From assembly GCF_039545095.1 (NCBI RefSeq), contig NZ_BAABRS010000001.1:992001-1056000 (forward strand): a DNA stretch of 64,000 nt. The letters are read 5' to 3'. This document shows positions 316-6,222 of the stretch, one piece after another. Source of the DNA: Fodinibius salicampi (GTDB lineage Bacteria > Bacteroidota > Rhodothermia > Balneolales > Balneolaceae). Made by a program: the position numbers and the translations under genes. The notes below the pieces were generated by a model, which saw only the letters and a list, made by a program, of their open reading frames with translations, was not told the DNA's origin and did no database searches. Position 1 is the first letter of the stretch. Every line of letters starts with the position of its first letter.

Positions 316-990
316 CTAACTAAAGTCTCCCTTTTCTTGCATATCCCAAATTTCCCGCATTTCATCCATAAAGGATTCTACCTTACTAAAATCTTTTATA
401 CCAGGCTCTTCTTCGAGTCCACTCGAAAGATCCACAGCATAAGGGGAAACAGTTTCACATGCTTTACGAATATTTCTATCATCAAGTCCGCCGGAAAGAA
501 AGAACGGAGCGCGATCAGTGATTTTATTCAGTTTTTTCCAGTCGAAAGTTTCGCCAGTTCCGCCCCATTGCTTCTCGACCTTAGTGTCAAAAAGAAAAAA
601 CTCTGCCACCTCAAGATAGGGCTCCAAACGGGAAATTATATCATCAGCTGTATCCTTCTCTTCGATATGAATAGCTTTAATAACAGGTTTATCAACAAGC
701 TCACAGTATTCCGGATTTTCATTTCCATGCAGCTGGACATAATCAATACCAGTCTGCCTGCTAATCATATTAACGTCATCCAAAGGCTGGTTCACGAACA
801 CTCCCACACATTTGGGGCCCTCTACCCAGTTAATAATAGCACCAGCTTTGGCGGGTGTAACATGTCGTGGACTTCTTTCATAAAAAATAAATCCTACATA
901 ATCAGCCAGCGCCCCAGAAACAAAGCGGGCATCTTCAAGTGTTGTTATTCCACAAATTTTGACTTTTGTTCGTTCCTTATTAGGTGCCAT
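316..990 (-). CDS. trpF: Phosphoribosylanthranilate isomerase
   Basis: This 224-residue TIM-barrel enzyme carries out the Amadori isomerisation of phosphoribosylanthranilate to CdRP in tryptophan synthesis. The N-terminal motif VKICGITTLEDA holds the expected catalytic cysteine (about residue 13). The catalytic aspartate should be the one in FLFDTKVE, and the phosphate-binding region is FLSGGLDDRNI. Its ATG overlaps the trpC stop codon by one base (TAATG), which suggests translational coupling. It is stand-alone here, whereas in E. coli it is fused to TrpC. Confidence 0.96.
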   Translation of the reverse strand: MAPNKERTKVKICGITTLEDARFVSGALADYVGFIFYERSPRHVTPAKAGAIINWVEGPKCVGVFVNQPLDDVNMISRQTGIDYVQLHGNENPEYCELVDKPVIKAIHIEEKDTADDIISRLEPYLEVAEFFLFDTKVEKQWGGTGETFDWKKLNKITDRAPFFLSGGLDDRNIRKACETVSPYAVDLSSGLEEEPGIKDFSKVESFMDEMREIWDMQEKGDFS

Positions 991-1808
991 TATTTACTGT
1001 TCTGTGAGTTTTTTATTAGCTCTTGCACATTATCCTTCAGTTTTTTTACCGCGTCACCCGGATCAGGTTGACGCATAAAATATTCTCCTATCAGTGCTGC
1101 ATGAATATCATTATTAAATAAATAATGTAGATCATCGGCACTGCTCAGACCACTTTCAGAGATCAGGACCGTTTCTTCCGGAGCTTTATTCAGGAGGTCT
1201 ACTCCGCGGTGTAAATCGACCTCAAAGTTTCTTAAATCTCTATTATTAACTCCAAGTATATCAACAAATTCAAAAGGTACACGTTCATAATCCTCTTCCG
1301 AATAGCATTCTACCAGCGCCTGTAATCCAAATTCCTCGGCAGCATGCAATAACTCCTCAAGCTGATGGCCATCCGTTATTGCAACAATTAATAAAACCGC
1401 ATCTGCTCCATAAGATCGCGCTTCCTTAATCTGATATGGTTCTATAATAAAATCTTTGCGCAACAATGGAATAGAAGTTTTATTACGAACACTTTCAAGG
1501 TATTTCAGATCACCTCTGAATGCCGGTTTATCGGTCAAAACAGAAATAGCAGCAGCTCCGCCCTTTTCATACTGATTAGCAATTTTCTCGGGATCAAAGT
1601 CGGGGCGTATGAGCCCTTTAGATGGAGAAGCCTTCTTTATCTCCGCAATAATTGATACCTCATCGGCCTGTTTTAACGCGTCACGAAAATTCCTAACCGG
1701 TTGCTCAAAATATTCAAACGAATCTAAATCATTAAAGCTGACTTTCTTTTTTCTTTTTTTGAGATCAACTGCTGTTTGTTCTACAATTTCATCAAGTATA
1801 GTAGACAT
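990..1808 (-). CDS. trpC: Indole-3-glycerol phosphate synthase
   Basis: This 272-residue TIM barrel closes CdRP to indole-3-glycerol phosphate. Family motifs visible are KKASPSKGLI near residue 60 (substrate-binding lysine), LLRKDFII (catalytic lysine region), LGVNNRDL and ISESGL. Length is normal for the stand-alone enzyme. It begins 4 nt after trpD ends and overlaps trpF by one base, so it is an internal gene of the trp operon. Confidence 0.97.
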   Translation of the reverse strand: MSTILDEIVEQTAVDLKKRKKKVSFNDLDSFEYFEQPVRNFRDALKQADEVSIIAEIKKASPSKGLIRPDFDPEKIANQYEKGGAAAISVLTDKPAFRGDLKYLESVRNKTSIPLLRKDFIIEPYQIKEARSYGADAVLLIVAITDGHQLEELLHAAEEFGLQALVECYSEEDYERVPFEFVDILGVNNRDLRNFEVDLHRGVDLLNKAPEETVLISESGLSSADDLHYLFNNDIHAALIGEYFMRQPDPGDAVKKLKDNVQELIKNSQNSK

Positions 1809-1812
1809 CGGA

Positions 1813-2847
1813 TTACCCTTTCTGTGCTATATCATTAGTAGCTTCAACGAACTTATCCAGTGCTTGCCGTGCCGCTCCTGATTGCAGGCTTTCCTCAGCA
1901 AGCTTCTTCGCCTCTGTAAGATGGTCCACTTTTCCCGAGGCATGGATTCCAAAAGCAGCATTGAGCAGAATAATATCCCGCTGGGCAGCCGTTGCCTCAT
2001 TATCCAATATTGACCGAATAATTTGGGCATTATAATCGGCATCACCTCCAATAACCTCTTCTATATCGGCCCATTCAAAATCAAGAGCACGGGGATCAAA
2101 AGTGGAAGCATCCTTAACCATGCTATTGGTTAGCTCAAAAATTTCGGTCTGGGCACTTAAGCTTACTTCATCCAACCCATCGTGTGAGTTAAGGGTATAA
2201 GCAAACTCCGTATCCAGATTTGCCAAAATTCGGGCGATCTTACGGGCGACCTCTTTGCTATAGGCCCCAATCACCTGCCGCTTTACCCCTGCCGGGTTCA
2301 TAAGTGGCCCCAAAATATTGAAGAAAGTGCGAATACCCAGGACCCTTCGAGCAGACATCACGTGTTTCATCGCCGGATGAAAGTTAGGAGCGAACATAAA
2401 AACGAGTCCAGCTTCATTAAAAACCTGTTCCACCTCTTCCTTTTGGAGGTCAATCACCCCTCCGAGTACTTCAAGCACATCCGCACTCCCACTCTTGCTG
2501 GATACGCTTCTGTTCCCATGTTTTAGCACAGGCACTCCTGCGCCGGCTACCACAAACATGGCCGTTGTAGATATATTAAAAGTTCCAGAACTATCCCCTC
2601 CAGTCCCGCAGAGGTCCACTGCACCGTTAGTTTCTACCTCTGGCTTGACAGCGGCTTCCCTCATAACTCTAACAAAAGCAGTGAGCTCTTCGGTGGTCTC
2701 CCCCTTCATTCTCATAGCCGTTAGGAACGAAGCAATACGCTCGTTTTCTACCTCTCCGGCAATAATTAGTCGAAGAGCTTTTTCTGCCTCCTCAGACGAC
2801 AGATCACCGCGGTAGATTAATTGTTCTAATATATCATTGAAATCCAT
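1813..2847 (-). CDS. trpD: Anthranilate phosphoribosyltransferase
   Basis: This 344-residue enzyme transfers phosphoribose from PRPP to anthranilate. The PRPP-binding glycine-rich motif LCGTGGDSSGTFNIST and the motif KHGNRSVSSKSGSADVLE are both intact, and the length matches the family. TrpD is not fused to the TrpG glutaminase as it is in enterics. It starts 45 nt after trpG ends. No internal terminator is visible in that gap, so it is probably transcribed with the rest of the trp operon. Confidence 0.97.
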   Translation of the reverse strand: MDFNDILEQLIYRGDLSSEEAEKALRLIIAGEVENERIASFLTAMRMKGETTEELTAFVRVMREAAVKPEVETNGAVDLCGTGGDSSGTFNISTTAMFVVAGAGVPVLKHGNRSVSSKSGSADVLEVLGGVIDLQKEEVEQVFNEAGLVFMFAPNFHPAMKHVMSARRVLGIRTFFNILGPLMNPAGVKRQVIGAYSKEVARKIARILANLDTEFAYTLNSHDGLDEVSLSAQTEIFELTNSMVKDASTFDPRALDFEWADIEEVIGGDADYNAQIIRSILDNEATAAQRDIILLNAAFGIHASGKVDHLTEAKKLAEESLQSGAARQALDKFVEATNDIAQKG

Positions 2848-2892: not shown

Positions 2893-3477
2893 TTATACTA
2901 AATTATGTTTTATCGTCTGTCGATACCAATTCTTAACGATAGCCGGCCCCTCAACGGTAAGCACACTTTCCGGATGAAATTGGATTCCTTCAATCGGAAA
3001 TTCTTTATGTCTAATTCCCATTAGCACTCCCTCGTCACTTCGAGCGGTAATTTCCAGTATATCCGGTATTTGATCCGGATCAAGTATCAGTGAATGATAG
3101 CGAGTAGCGATAAAATTATCGGGAATATCCCGGAAAATAGATTTGCCGTCGTGTGTTATGGGAGAAGTTTTTCCATGCATCAACTTGGGAGCATGAATAA
3201 CACGACCTCCAAACACCTCTCCTATAGCCTGGAGTCCCAGGCAAACTCCCAAAATCGGGACCTTATGGCCCAATTGTTCAATAATGGGTTCGGTGATTCC
3301 TGCATCAGCCGGACGACCCGGGCCTGGAGAAATTAAGATCCCTGAAGGATTTAATGCCCATACTTCATCCACTGAGAGCGCATCGTTGCGAACGACCTTA
3401 TAATTATCCGTTTCTTGTGCTACGATATCCACCAAATTGTAGGTAAATGAATCGTAGTTATCAATGACTAAAATCAT
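2893..3477 (-). CDS. trpG: Anthranilate synthase glutaminase component (TrpG/PabA type)
   Basis: This 194-residue class I glutamine amidotransferase supplies ammonia to TrpE. The nucleophile elbow GVCLGLQAIGEVFGG contains the catalytic cysteine, and GIQFHPESV holds the His and Glu of the triad. The N-terminal MILVIDNYDSFTYNLV is characteristic. Sequence alone cannot exclude a shared role with aminodeoxychorismate synthase (PabA), but its place in the trp operon argues for anthranilate synthase. The ATG is 13 nt from the trpS stop. Confidence 0.95.
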   Translation of the reverse strand: MILVIDNYDSFTYNLVDIVAQETDNYKVVRNDALSVDEVWALNPSGILISPGPGRPADAGITEPIIEQLGHKVPILGVCLGLQAIGEVFGGRVIHAPKLMHGKTSPITHDGKSIFRDIPDNFIATRYHSLILDPDQIPDILEITARSDEGVLMGIRHKEFPIEGIQFHPESVLTVEGPAIVKNWYRQTIKHNLV

Positions 3478-3490
3478 GGGTTCAAACTCC

Positions 3491-4486
3491 TTAGCTTTTC
3501 AGTGAATATTGGTGGGATTTAAATAATCCCGTTACTTCTCGAATCGGTTCCATCACGGTTTCAGCCCTTTTTCGAGCTTTCTCGCCTCCTTCTTGTAAAA
3601 TATCGTGAACCCGATCCAAGTCTTGGGACAATTCTTTTCTTCGCTCACGCGCTTCGGCAAAGTATTCTTCAATCATTGCTAAAAGCTCCTTCTTGGCATG
3701 ACCATATCCATACCCTCCTGCGCGATATTTTTCGGCTATTTCCTTTTGCTTCTCCTCATCCGCAAAAAGTTTTATAAGAGCGAATACATTGCAGTTCTCC
3801 GGATCTTTTGGTTCATCCAGGGGTGTTGAGTCCGTTTTAATAGACATTACCTTCTTTTTAAGGGTTTTACCCTCATCAAAAATATTAATCGTATTGCCAT
3901 AGGATTTACTCATCTTTCGTCCATCGACTCCCGGTACAATTGCTACGGATTCAACAATATGCTCTTCTGGAAGTTTTAGATAATCATTGCCATAATTATG
4001 ATTGAATTTCCCAGCCAAATCGCGACAAATTTCGATATTTTGTTTTTGATCTTGTCCCACAGGTACCAAATCCGAATGATAAATTAGGATATCCGCCGCT
4101 TGCAGAATCGGATAGGTAAATAATCCAATATTCGGGCTCAGCCCTTGTCCGACTTTATCCTTATAGGCCACCCCTTTCTCCATTAAACTCACCGGACAAA
4201 AAGTGCCTAAAATCCAAGCCAGTTCAGCGACTTGTGGTACATCACTTTGAACAAAGAACGTACACTTTTCGGGATCCAGTCCCAGTGCCAAATAATCCAA
4301 GGCTACATCAATAGTATTCTGGCGTATTTGTTCGCCATCATTAATGGAAGTCAGAGAATGATAATTAGCAATAAAATAAAATGCATCTCCCTGTTCCTGC
4401 ATTTGAATATGCTGGCGAAGTGCTCCAAAATAATTTCCTAAATGTAGTTTACCGGATGATTGGATACCGGATAAAATCGTCTTCAT
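3491..4486 (-). CDS. trpS: Tryptophanyl-tRNA synthetase inside the trp operon
   Basis: This class I aminoacyl-tRNA synthetase charges tRNA-Trp. It has the HIGH-like motif SGKLHLGN close to the N-terminus and an intact KMSKS motif in GRKMSKSYGNTI. The reading frame can extend upstream to a TTG at 4513, but I prefer the ATG at 4486: it gives the family-typical start MKTILSGIQSSGKLHLGN, and there is no good ribosome site at the TTG. The gene lies between trpE and trpG with short gaps and no internal terminator, so it should share the trp attenuator. No other trpS is visible in the window. Confidence 0.95.
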   Translation of the reverse strand: MKTILSGIQSSGKLHLGNYFGALRQHIQMQEQGDAFYFIANYHSLTSINDGEQIRQNTIDVALDYLALGLDPEKCTFFVQSDVPQVAELAWILGTFCPVSLMEKGVAYKDKVGQGLSPNIGLFTYPILQAADILIYHSDLVPVGQDQKQNIEICRDLAGKFNHNYGNDYLKLPEEHIVESVAIVPGVDGRKMSKSYGNTINIFDEGKTLKKKVMSIKTDSTPLDEPKDPENCNVFALIKLFADEEKQKEIAEKYRAGGYGYGHAKKELLAMIEEYFAEARERRKELSQDLDRVHDILQEGGEKARKRAETVMEPIREVTGLFKSHQYSLKS

Positions 4487-4531
4487 TTGATCGCTATCAG
4501 TTTTAAGTTGCAATTTATAACTGTTTAATGA

Positions 4532-6007
4532 TTATTCACTACCGGTAATCGTTAGTGCAACACTCAGCGCTTCAACAAGTGCACCGGCTTTATTCTTAGT
4601 TTCTATATACTCCTTCCCAGGATCACTGTCAGCTACAATCCCAGCCCCGGCCTGTATATAAACATTAGAATCCGTTACCAACATGGTACGAATAACTATA
4701 CAGGTATCCATATTACCAGAAAAATCAAAATATCCTACTGCTCCCGCATAGGGACCTCTTTTGGTAGGTTCCAGCTCATCAATAATTTCCATTGCCCGGA
4801 TTTTCGGAGCTCCGCTTACGGTTCCGGCCGGAAAGCATTGCATTAAAGCATCAACCGCTGTCTGATGCTCCGCGAGTTGTCCCTTAACATCCGATACAAT
4901 GTGCATAACATGGGAATAACGCTCAATAACCTGCTCGCGGACGGGTCGTACCGTACCCGGCTGGCAAACCCGGGACAAATCATTACGTCCAAGATCCACT
5001 AACATCACATGCTCAGCAATCTCCTTGGGATCGTTCTTTAGATCCTCTTCTAGAGCCAAGTCCTCTTCATCTGTTTCTCCCCTTGGGCGCGTACCCGCTA
5101 TGGGTAGCAGCTGCGCTGTTTCATCCTGAACGCGTACCAAAACTTCCGGAGAAGAGCCAACCAAAGCAAAGTCTTCAAAATCCAAGTAAAAGAGATAGGG
5201 CGAAGGATTTACCATCCGCAGCGCCCGGTAAAGCATAAAGCGATCCCCCTCAAAATCTGTTTCAAAACGCTGGGACAGCACTACCTGGAAAATATCTCCT
5301 TCATATATATACTCCTTAGCACGTTTAACCATACCCTCAAATTCATCCCGGTCAATATTGCTCGTCAGGTTTTCAGGATTGATAGAAAAAGAGTTCGTTT
5401 CAGGTAACGGCTGATAAACGAGCTCTTCCAACTCATCCAATCTTTTCTGCGCCTGTTTATAGCGCTTCTTGACGTCTACGTCTGCTGTATCATCTATAAA
5501 AACAGTTTTGATGATAATAATCTGCTGCTTGACATGATCAAAGGCGAACACCTCGTCGTAAAAAGCCCATATTGCTTCCGGGATTTCCATTTCCGAAGGT
5601 GGAGTATTTGGCAGGTGTTCTATTTCCCGCACAGTATCATAAGAAGAAAAACCTACAGCCCCGCCTGTTAGCCGGGGAAGTTCGGGAATTTCAGGTTCAG
5701 TATGACGAGTCGTTAATTCTTTTAAGGCCTCAAAGTAAGTTTGATCAAGCTGCTCAACATTTCCTTCTTTTTGAAGCGTTACTTCATCCTTCTCATATCG
5801 CAAGATCTGATAAGGATTTCGCCCCAAAAAGGAATACCTTGCTAACTGTTCCCCTCCTTCTACCGATTCCAACAGGAAGGGAATTTTAGCCTTTTCCCTA
5901 AGTTTCAGGAATAACGATACAGGGGTCATAACATCAGCCATTAGCCGCCGGTAAACCGGTACAGCCGTATATTTCTTTGCTAAATTCTCAAATTTTTCAA
6001 ATTTCAT
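4532..6007 (-). CDS. trpE: Anthranilate synthase component I
   Basis: This 491-residue chorismate-utilising enzyme makes anthranilate, the committed step of tryptophan synthesis. The N-terminal domain carries the feedback-inhibition region [18 protein letters not shown] (the conserved LLES plus RYS). The C-terminal catalytic domain has [28 protein letters not shown] and the end block [11 protein letters not shown]. The presence of the tryptophan-binding residues suggests enzyme-level feedback as well as the attenuator upstream. An AGAGGA ribosome site lies about 8 nt before the ATG. It is the first enzyme gene of the operon. Confidence 0.97.
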
Positions 6008-6042: not shown

Positions 6043-6077
6043 AAAAAAACCCACTCCAGTTTCCTGCAGTGGGTTTT
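6043..6077 (-). terminator. Attenuator terminator hairpin (3:4 stem) before trpE
   Basis: Read on the minus strand, AAAACCCACT (6077-6068) pairs perfectly with AGTGGGTTTT (6055-6046). An inner CAG/CTG stem is capped by a GAAA tetraloop, and a run of seven T follows the GGG. This is a canonical intrinsic terminator placed 36 nt before the trpE start and after the trpL stop. Its 5' arm can instead pair with the leader-peptide coding region, as described in the attenuator entry. Confidence 0.92.
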
Positions 6078-6151
6078 CTAAAAACTTTAAATAAAAATCT
6101 AATTTATAGCTCAGCCACTGCCTGTATTTTTTTCACTACAGGCCACCACCA
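6043..6151 (-). promoter_or_regulatory. Trp operon transcription attenuator with alternative pairings
   Basis: Four segments can be drawn on the minus strand. Segment 1, GCCTGTA (6143-6137), directly follows the Trp codons and pairs with TACAGGC of segment 2 (6126-6120). Segment 2 also contains GCAGTGG (6121-6115), which is complementary to CCACTGC of segment 3 (6072-6066). Segment 3 pairs with segment 4 to make the terminator. A ribosome stalled at the Trp codons (6151-6143) would mask segment 1, allow the 2:3 antiterminator and permit transcription. A ribosome that reaches the stop codon would mask segment 2 and allow termination. Pairings are read directly from the sequence; the mechanism is inferred from the classical trp attenuator. 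Confidence 0.88.
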
Positions 6152-6181
6152 ATTAATGCTATTTTGAACAGATTTTTTCAC
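6104..6181 (-). CDS. trpL: Trp operon leader peptide with three tandem Trp codons
   Basis: A short frame starting at GTG (6181) encodes 25 residues, MKKSVQNSINWWWPVVKKIQ followed by AVAEL, and ends at TAA (6106-6104). Three consecutive TGG codons sit at 6151-6143, just before the first arm of the attenuator. The stop codon falls beyond segment 2, as the attenuation mechanism needs. No strong Shine-Dalgarno is visible. The frame is also open from an upstream GTG at 6229, which would give 41 residues. A start at 6181 is preferred only because a possible promoter lies between the two. Confidence 0.85.
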   Translation of the reverse strand: MKKSVQNSINWWWPVVKKIQAVAEL

Positions 6182-6193
6182 GACGAGTTGAAG

Positions 6194-6222
6194 ATAATAG
6201 CCTGCTTTACTAAAAGCAAAAA
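6194..6222 (-). promoter_or_regulatory. Possible trp operon promoter
   Basis: On the minus strand TTTTTG (6222-6217) is separated by 17 nt from TATTAT (6199-6194). This would start transcription close to 6187 and leave only a few bases before the trpL GTG at 6181. It is a match by eye to a sigma-70-like pattern in AT-rich DNA. Transcription from further upstream, through the pssA tail, is equally possible because no terminator is seen after pssA. Confidence 0.35.

Follow-up and report, generated by a model that had tools for sequence, protein, structure and literature searches.

A predicted ribosome-mediated attenuator preceding the trpE-trpS operon of Fodinibius salicampi, and candidate Cys/Met counterparts in Balneolales

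The trp operon and its leader region

The window (the whole stretch of DNA that was analysed, 64,000 nt of contig NZ_BAABRS010000001.1, positions 992,001 to 1,056,000) carries a tryptophan operon on its minus strand, in the order trpE-trpS-trpG-trpD-trpC-trpF, with the putative attenuator upstream of trpE. trpE and trpS were identified by Pfam matches. The four ORFs that follow are those we take, by recognition, to be trpG, trpD, trpC and trpF. The features of the locus are listed below from upstream to downstream.

6214..6219, minus strand: -35 element TTGCTT, found with the pattern TTG-N3-N17-TAnnTT
6191..6196, minus strand: -10 element TATCTT (TAnnTT type), found with the same pattern; predicted transcription start near 6184
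6104..6181, minus strand: ORF of the leader peptide, GTG start, 25 aa, VKKSVQNSINWWWPVVKKIQAVAEL followed by the stop codon, containing WWW
6143..6151, minus strand: three tandem Trp codons, TGGTGGTGG, the putative sensor
6137..6143, minus strand: segment 1, GCCTGTA
6120..6126, minus strand: portion of segment 2 that pairs with segment 1, TACAGGC (1:2 pairing test)
6115..6121, minus strand: portion of segment 2 that pairs with segment 3, GCAGTGG (complementarity, covariation, folds)
6066..6072, minus strand: segment 3, CCACTGC, the antiterminator partner (complementarity, covariation)
6043..6077, minus strand: 3:4 terminator, a hairpin at 6077-6046 with a T-run to 6043 (RNAfold, conservation)
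4532..6007, minus strand: trpE, anthranilate synthase component I (PF00425, PF04715)
3491..4513, minus strand: trpS, tryptophanyl-tRNA synthetase (PF00579, class I W and Y)
2893..3477, minus strand: trpG (ORF, conserved gene order)
1813..2847, minus strand: trpD (ORF, conserved gene order)
990..1808, minus strand: trpC (ORF, conserved gene order)
316..990, minus strand: trpF (ORF, conserved gene order)

The leader frame of 25 residues with TGG TGG TGG, first described in an earlier note on this DNA, was found again by reading the sequence and by script. Directly 3' of the Trp codons lies the 1:2 hairpin, GCCTGTA with TACAGGC, also described earlier, which as a single unbroken helix exceeded shuffled sequences in this genome (p 0.003). 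The rising arm of the terminator contains CCACTGC (6072-6066), which is perfectly complementary to GCAGTGG (6121-6115); the two would form the alternative 2:3 stem of 7 bp that the note had proposed. The leader stretch of 171 nt folded with a z-score of -4.45 and none of 200 shuffles was equally stable. A gap of 35 nt separates the terminator from the ATG of trpE at 6007. The 6077-6046 hairpin was absent from the list produced by a simple terminator scan of the window, presumably because of a mismatch in the stem. The call of a 3:4 terminator, which agrees with the earlier claim, therefore rests on RNAfold and conservation. The anatomy of a ribosome-mediated trp attenuator at 6181-6043 on the minus strand is confirmed.

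The trpS gene within the operon was the sole match to tryptophanyl-tRNA synthetase in this genome at E 1e-20. At the same threshold 57 of 58 relatives had one match and one had none. Among 80 named Balneolales loci, trpS followed trpE within 300 nt in 77; the others comprised one with a wider gap, one that was cut off and one without trpS at that place. In the rest of the class, 54 of 59 genomes had trpS downstream of trpE, in the same orientation and no more than 1.7 kb away; a 60th (G113) was left out because it gave no trpE match. The enclosure of trpS in a trp operon with a predicted attenuator is new.

Conservation and alternative pairing

The genome index held 11 further genomes in Fodinibius, and TrpE was 80-83% identical to that of eight named Fodinibius/Aliifodinibius records. 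Regions upstream of trpE were collected from the 58 relatives (partial, weaker matches in G019 and G049 were not used) and from the 80 named loci, three of which were cut at a contig end. After 32 duplicates were dropped, 101 distinct Balneolales regions remained. In 91 of them a terminator was preceded by a short ORF carrying two or more Trp codons (WW or WxW), and in the other 10 it was not; reading from the list, 79 of the 91 leaders had WWW or longer. Three natural variants had the middle Trp codon replaced (L010 of G002, WCW; L013 of G021, WRW; L075, WCW).

A single fixed criterion for leader plus terminator was applied to 80 regions outside the order (L166-L245), which were chosen to spread over genera and are thus a non-random sample. 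The arrangement was present in 29 of 40 regions from elsewhere in the class and in 21 of 40 from the phylum outside that class, against 0 of 80 reverse-complemented and 0 of 240 block-shuffled controls. The rarity in the FCB group that the earlier note had implied is undercut by these 50 regions, and by a Bacteroidetes family of this kind that already exists in Rfam (RF01692, discussed below). A covariance model trained on 59 of the trp leaders matched 108 of 128 Balneolales genomes at E 1e-3. The training genomes match by construction, and the count is an upper bound because at least two of the matches (G264, G287; L298, L299) are ordinary terminators.

A terminator before trpE would by itself fit control of the operon by a T-box, by TRAP or by a riboswitch, with the Trp codons incidental. 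We regard this as extremely improbable. Rfam gave no match at the gathering threshold in the window and no T-box among 18 weak matches (TRAP sites lay outside that search), and the ORF with its Trp codons is conserved and keeps its register with segments 2 and 3.

Alternative pairing was examined in each of the 91 leaders by taking the rising arm of the terminator and seeking the most complementary stretch in the RNA that lies 3' of the Trp codons and 5' of the terminator. Complementarity exceeded that of shuffled sequences at p 0.05 in 77 of the 91 and at p 0.01 in 62, leaving 14 without a significant match. The partners change from lineage to lineage and stay matched: GCAGTGG/CCACTGC, AACAGCGGG/CCCGCTGTT, CTGAAAGCGG/CCGCTTTCAG and CGGCAGTGG/CCGCTGCCG. 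An alignment of 59 leaders, A2, was made by selecting those with a CAG-type segment 2 and dropping one duplicate. Here 97.2% of cells in the terminator helix were paired, and the pairs 129-139, 130-138 and 131-137 had two-sided changes in 20, 22 and 21 of the 59 sequences, respectively. In the 2:3 helix 87.0% of cells were paired, with two-sided changes at three pairs. For both helices, changed cells and the covariation score lay above all shuffles (0 of 500 reached them). Counts of pairs with two-sided changes showed no excess over shuffles (reached by 290 of 500 for the terminator and 255 of 500 for 2:3), nor did the number of further pair types (277 and 196 of 500, respectively). In these alignments the 2:3 and 3:4 helices covary. 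The alignment of relatives that the earlier note had proposed thus bore out the leader frame and the compensatory changes in 2:3 and 3:4, but the 1:2 stem was less conserved, reaching significance (p 0.05) in only 24 of the 91 leaders. An outer helix, formed by early leader codons with a stretch 3' of segment 2 (for example AGCTCATAAAAAT/ATTTTTATGAGCT), was significant in 45 of the 91, with 4-5 expected; in this genome it was not significant alone (p 0.1).

Folds that take the ribosome into account gave the geometry of the switch. When the nucleotides that a ribosome waiting at the first Trp codon would occupy were removed, the best fold contained a 2:3 helix of at least 6 bp in 82 of 91 leaders (13% of shuffles) and of at least 4 bp in 87 of 91 (35% of shuffles). 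Segment 2 had been defined by complementarity, so this test is favoured and is not independent of the 2:3 complementarity test. With the ribosome placed at the stop codon, 60% or more of segment 2 was covered in 89 of 91 leaders and 3:4 formed in all 91. This was so despite differences in where the leader ORF ends: many Balneolaceae have their stop codon 3' of segment 2, and in many genomes of other families it lies inside that segment or ahead of it.

Could the locus be a conserved arrangement with no regulatory role, in which a small protein gene is followed by a constitutive terminator? The case for attenuation is purely comparative, and a leader peptide can act in trans, as is described for peTrpL of S. 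meliloti (PMC7298713). Against this, the sequence of the 2:3 helix changes but its pairing persists, and the residues of the peptide other than the Trp codons vary widely among the 91 leaders. We consider such an arrangement very improbable, and prefer attenuation.

Of the ten regions that have no Trp leader, nine (L032, L033, L105, L108, L111, L114, L117, L118 and L119) show neither Trp codons nor a leader ORF upstream of trpE and keep the promoter described below and a terminator-like hairpin, with a conserved stretch between the two that is common to the nine. These nine look like one clade, presumably marine. The sensor may have been replaced in them, or the arrangement may be a relic.

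Promoter, predicted 5' end and proposed mechanism

In this genome the -35 element, a spacer of 17 nt, the -10 element and nine further nucleotides lead directly to the GTG of the leader ORF. The pattern TTG-N3-N17-TAnnTT ends 5-10 nt 5' of the leader start codon in 86 of the 91 Balneolales leaders, a count that is descriptive since the pattern was read off these same sequences. For comparison, 6 of the 1123 other ATGs in those regions had it; so did 5 of the window's 5771 NTGs, and the trp leader is among these five. With a spacer of 16-18 nt allowed, it was found at 17 of 29 leaders of the class and 9 of 21 of the phylum outside the order. A genome-wide search at ATG starts only, with two forms of the pattern, returned 1 and 13 sites, fewer than the 6 and 31 of the backward control, so there was no enrichment. 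The register of the Flavobacterium TAnnTTTG box, described at -12 to -5 (PMC9723704), would place the TAnnTT hexamer at -12 to -7 and the trp transcription start at about 6184, and would leave a 5' leader of about 0-4 nt across the set. The trp leader mRNA is probably near-leaderless, a view of the start site and of leaderless initiation that follows from the position of the promoter. We regard this predicted near-leaderless arrangement as a new finding.

The attenuator may be real and the message may nevertheless begin further upstream, for instance by read-through from the ORF at 7070-6264, which we take to be a phosphatidyltransferase; the leader would then be preceded by an ordinary 5' leader. 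Only 82 nt lie between that ORF and the leader, and the start site near 6184 is a predicted one. Leaderless messages or very short 5' UTRs are moreover uncommon in the Bacteroidetes that have been studied, at 5.5% and 3.7% in the respective reports (PMC9723704; PMC7366714). We nevertheless think an upstream start unlikely. The -35 and -10 elements keep their 17-nt spacer and their distance from the start codon in nearly all leaders and are rare at other start codons, they persist in nine of the ten regions from which the leader ORF is missing, and the pattern is neither enriched genome-wide nor usual at the Cys leaders described below, where it was found at 1 of 35 (a different ORF was tested at L338).

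We propose, with a probability of about 0.9, that trpE-trpS-trpG-trpD-trpC-trpF is under the control of a ribosome-mediated transcription attenuator of the classical type. RNA polymerase would begin a few bases 5' of the leader start codon, and a ribosome would load on the nearly leaderless 5' end and translate the 25-codon ORF. With ample charged tRNA-Trp the ribosome would reach the stop codon and cover segment 2, so that 3:4 forms and transcription ends at 6043. When charged tRNA-Trp is short, a stall on WWW would block segment 1 and free segment 2 to pair with segment 3, and the operon would be read. Without translation, 1:2 (together with the outer helix in some species) and 3:4 would form and transcription would stop. 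Since the operon includes the sole TrpRS gene found, a switch that senses the charging of tRNA-Trp would raise the charging enzyme along with the pathway. The comparative evidence for the attenuator consists of sequence, conservation, covariation, geometry and operon order; from these we infer the start site, leaderless initiation, stalling, termination and the physiological response.

The earlier reading of trp attenuation is supported and, as far as sequence tells, was right; the mechanism would be the classical one and appears widespread in the phylum. Three points lie beyond that note: the promoter that abuts the leader ORF, trpS in the operon and the possible outer helix.

Cys/Met-rich sibling leaders and known systems

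The trp covariance model gave two further matches in this genome, one of them a Cys locus at 6.4e-8, and a pattern search with the falling arm of the terminator gave eight sites against none in the backward control. Model and pattern search together yielded three more candidate attenuators in this genome (G000), each a Cys/Met-rich leader followed by a terminator.

C2:712028-712155: Cys/Met-rich leader and terminator before rhodanese and sulfite reductase genes
C5:119695-119842: Cys/Met-rich leader and terminator before a luciferase-like monooxygenase gene
C3:509276-509410: Cys/Met-rich leader and terminator before a TonB-dependent receptor gene

The monooxygenase behind the C5 leader is one that we take to be SsuD-like. 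The other four falling-arm sites besides trp were without such a leader.

The sibling peptides are rich in Cys and Met, as in MNTQNQIHNFSMIPTTMCVMCMCCCMCMPRGSGTDMSK. Among 35 secondary matches of the trp model that were fetched from the order, Cys/Met leaders were present in 18 (10 of 15 and 8 of 20), Cys cases being selected for at least three Cys. In the other 17 no Cys leader was seen; these were taken for ordinary terminators and left out of the Cys counts. Together with C3, the 18 make a set of 19 leaders in which Cys accounts for 104 and Met for 110 of 639 residues. Both Cys codons are used (76 TGT, 28 TGC). A 2:3 match at p 0.05 was found in 15 of the 19; the four without one include C3 and C5 of this genome. 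In the 2:3 helix of the Cys leaders 94.1% of cells were paired and two pairs were changed on both sides, which 6 of 500 shuffles reached.

A covariance model built from the 19 Cys leaders matched 47 of 128 Balneolales genomes at 1e-5, some of the matches being trp attenuators; it found the trp attenuator of this genome again at 8.7e-6. In the rest of the class it matched 2 of 60 genomes, weakly. Of 30 loci returned, the 16 outside the training alignment were examined, and all 16 had a leader with at least four Cys and a sulfur-type gene downstream: rhodanese and sulfite reductase at 11, a CitMHS/SLC13-type permease at four and cobA-cysH at one. Gene context is the more independent evidence here because the model contains Cys codons and the Cys-richest ORF was chosen. 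The Cys/Met-leader loci examined in the order came to 35 in total, and no Rfam family matched among the 12 that were scanned.

These results lead us to favour, with some reserve, the view that Balneolales possess a modular framework for attenuation. A single 2:3:4 core (GGYAGTGG / CCCRCTRCC / terminator) would serve two kinds of sensor. On the near-leaderless trp message it would follow Trp codons, ahead of trpE-trpS; elsewhere it would follow Cys/Met codons, upstream of the rhodanese and sulfite reductase genes, of cobA-cysH, of the gene for an SsuD-like monooxygenase and of those for permeases of the CitMHS family (presumably for sulfate). The Cys/Met versions would then form a regulon governed by sulfur-amino-acid attenuation, one that uses intrinsic terminators and belongs to no Rfam family, and the Trp and Cys/Met versions may derive one from the other through exchange of the sensor codons. 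The shared core of the Trp and Cys leaders may be due to shared ancestry or to the requirements that any short attenuator has to satisfy.

Leader-peptide attenuation of trp genes is, our results suggest, widespread in Bacteroidota, and most of the forms scanned fall outside the Rfam families. The phylum is said to have no Shine-Dalgarno sequences (PMC6847099), and the trp leader would be a case in which attenuation depends on leaderless initiation. Charging homeostasis could be tested cleanly at this locus, where the one TrpRS gene found is predicted to be controlled by a sensor of what the enzyme makes. The Cys siblings, if functional, would be an answer to sulfur supply by transcription attenuation outside Actinobacteria. 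With Trp and Cys versions to compare, it becomes possible to ask whether a change of sensor codons alone retargets an attenuator.

The enterobacterial trpL attenuator has tandem Trp codons, alternative 1:2, 2:3 and 3:4 helices and an intrinsic terminator before trpE. The Fodinibius trp leader has in common with it (Rfam Trp_leader, RF00513) the Trp codons, the predicted alternative helices and the terminator, but differs in its predicted near-leaderless promoter and in the presence of trpS in the operon. In the window RF00513 scored 20.7 bits, below its cut-off of 41.

Closer in lineage is Bacteroid-trp, the 'Bacteroidete tryptophan peptide leader RNA' (RF01692; Weinberg 2010, PMC2864571), which has the same gene, a Trp leader peptide and a Bacteroidetes host in common with the Fodinibius locus. 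At its cut-off of 49 bits it had no match in the window and matched none of 26 Balneolales loci scanned (L001 being the region of the window itself). It matched 2 of 26 distinct loci scanned outside the order (L233 of G185 and L239 of G161), so that such leaders are under-covered by Rfam outside Balneolales. Bacteroid-trp has been noted upstream of the trp operon in Flavobacterium psychrophilum (PMC6414381), for which 'strong clues' of leader-peptide attenuation before amino-acid operons are mentioned as well (PMC9723704).

In Sinorhizobium meliloti the trpL leader ORF (rnTrpL) is described as beginning at the 5' end of the RNA with its ATG (PMC7298713). A leader ORF at or near the 5' end is common to both systems, as predicted for Fodinibius; S. 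meliloti differs in being an alphaproteobacterium with a 14-aa peptide and a trpE(G) fusion. Attenuators with WW or WWW leaders are predicted at the trp operons and trpS2 of Streptomyces avermitilis (PMC1262725), and leaderless leader peptides are described in Streptomyces lividans (PMC8079986). Actinobacteria thus have in common with Fodinibius WW/WWW leaders, attenuated aminoacyl-tRNA synthetases and leaderless leaders. Whereas trpS of Streptomyces has its own predicted attenuator, that of Fodinibius is the second gene of the trp operon.

For the candidate Cys siblings, which we regard as new, the precedents found in the literature are from Actinobacteria; the Flavobacterium clues are detailed in a supplement beyond our search, and we make no claim that such leaders are absent from print. 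A Met/Cys leader before metN is reported in the S. lividans paper (PMC8079986), polycysteine leaderless short ORFs are known from mycobacteria (Canestrari 2020, as described in PMC9031893, PMC9094748 and PMC13236596), and leaders of cys operons, without obvious terminators, are described for mycobacteria and several other species (PMC1262725). In both groups Cys codons precede sulfur genes. The Balneolales Cys leaders differ from the actinobacterial ones in having an intrinsic terminator, a 2:3 match in 15 of 19 and a core that resembles the trp attenuator.
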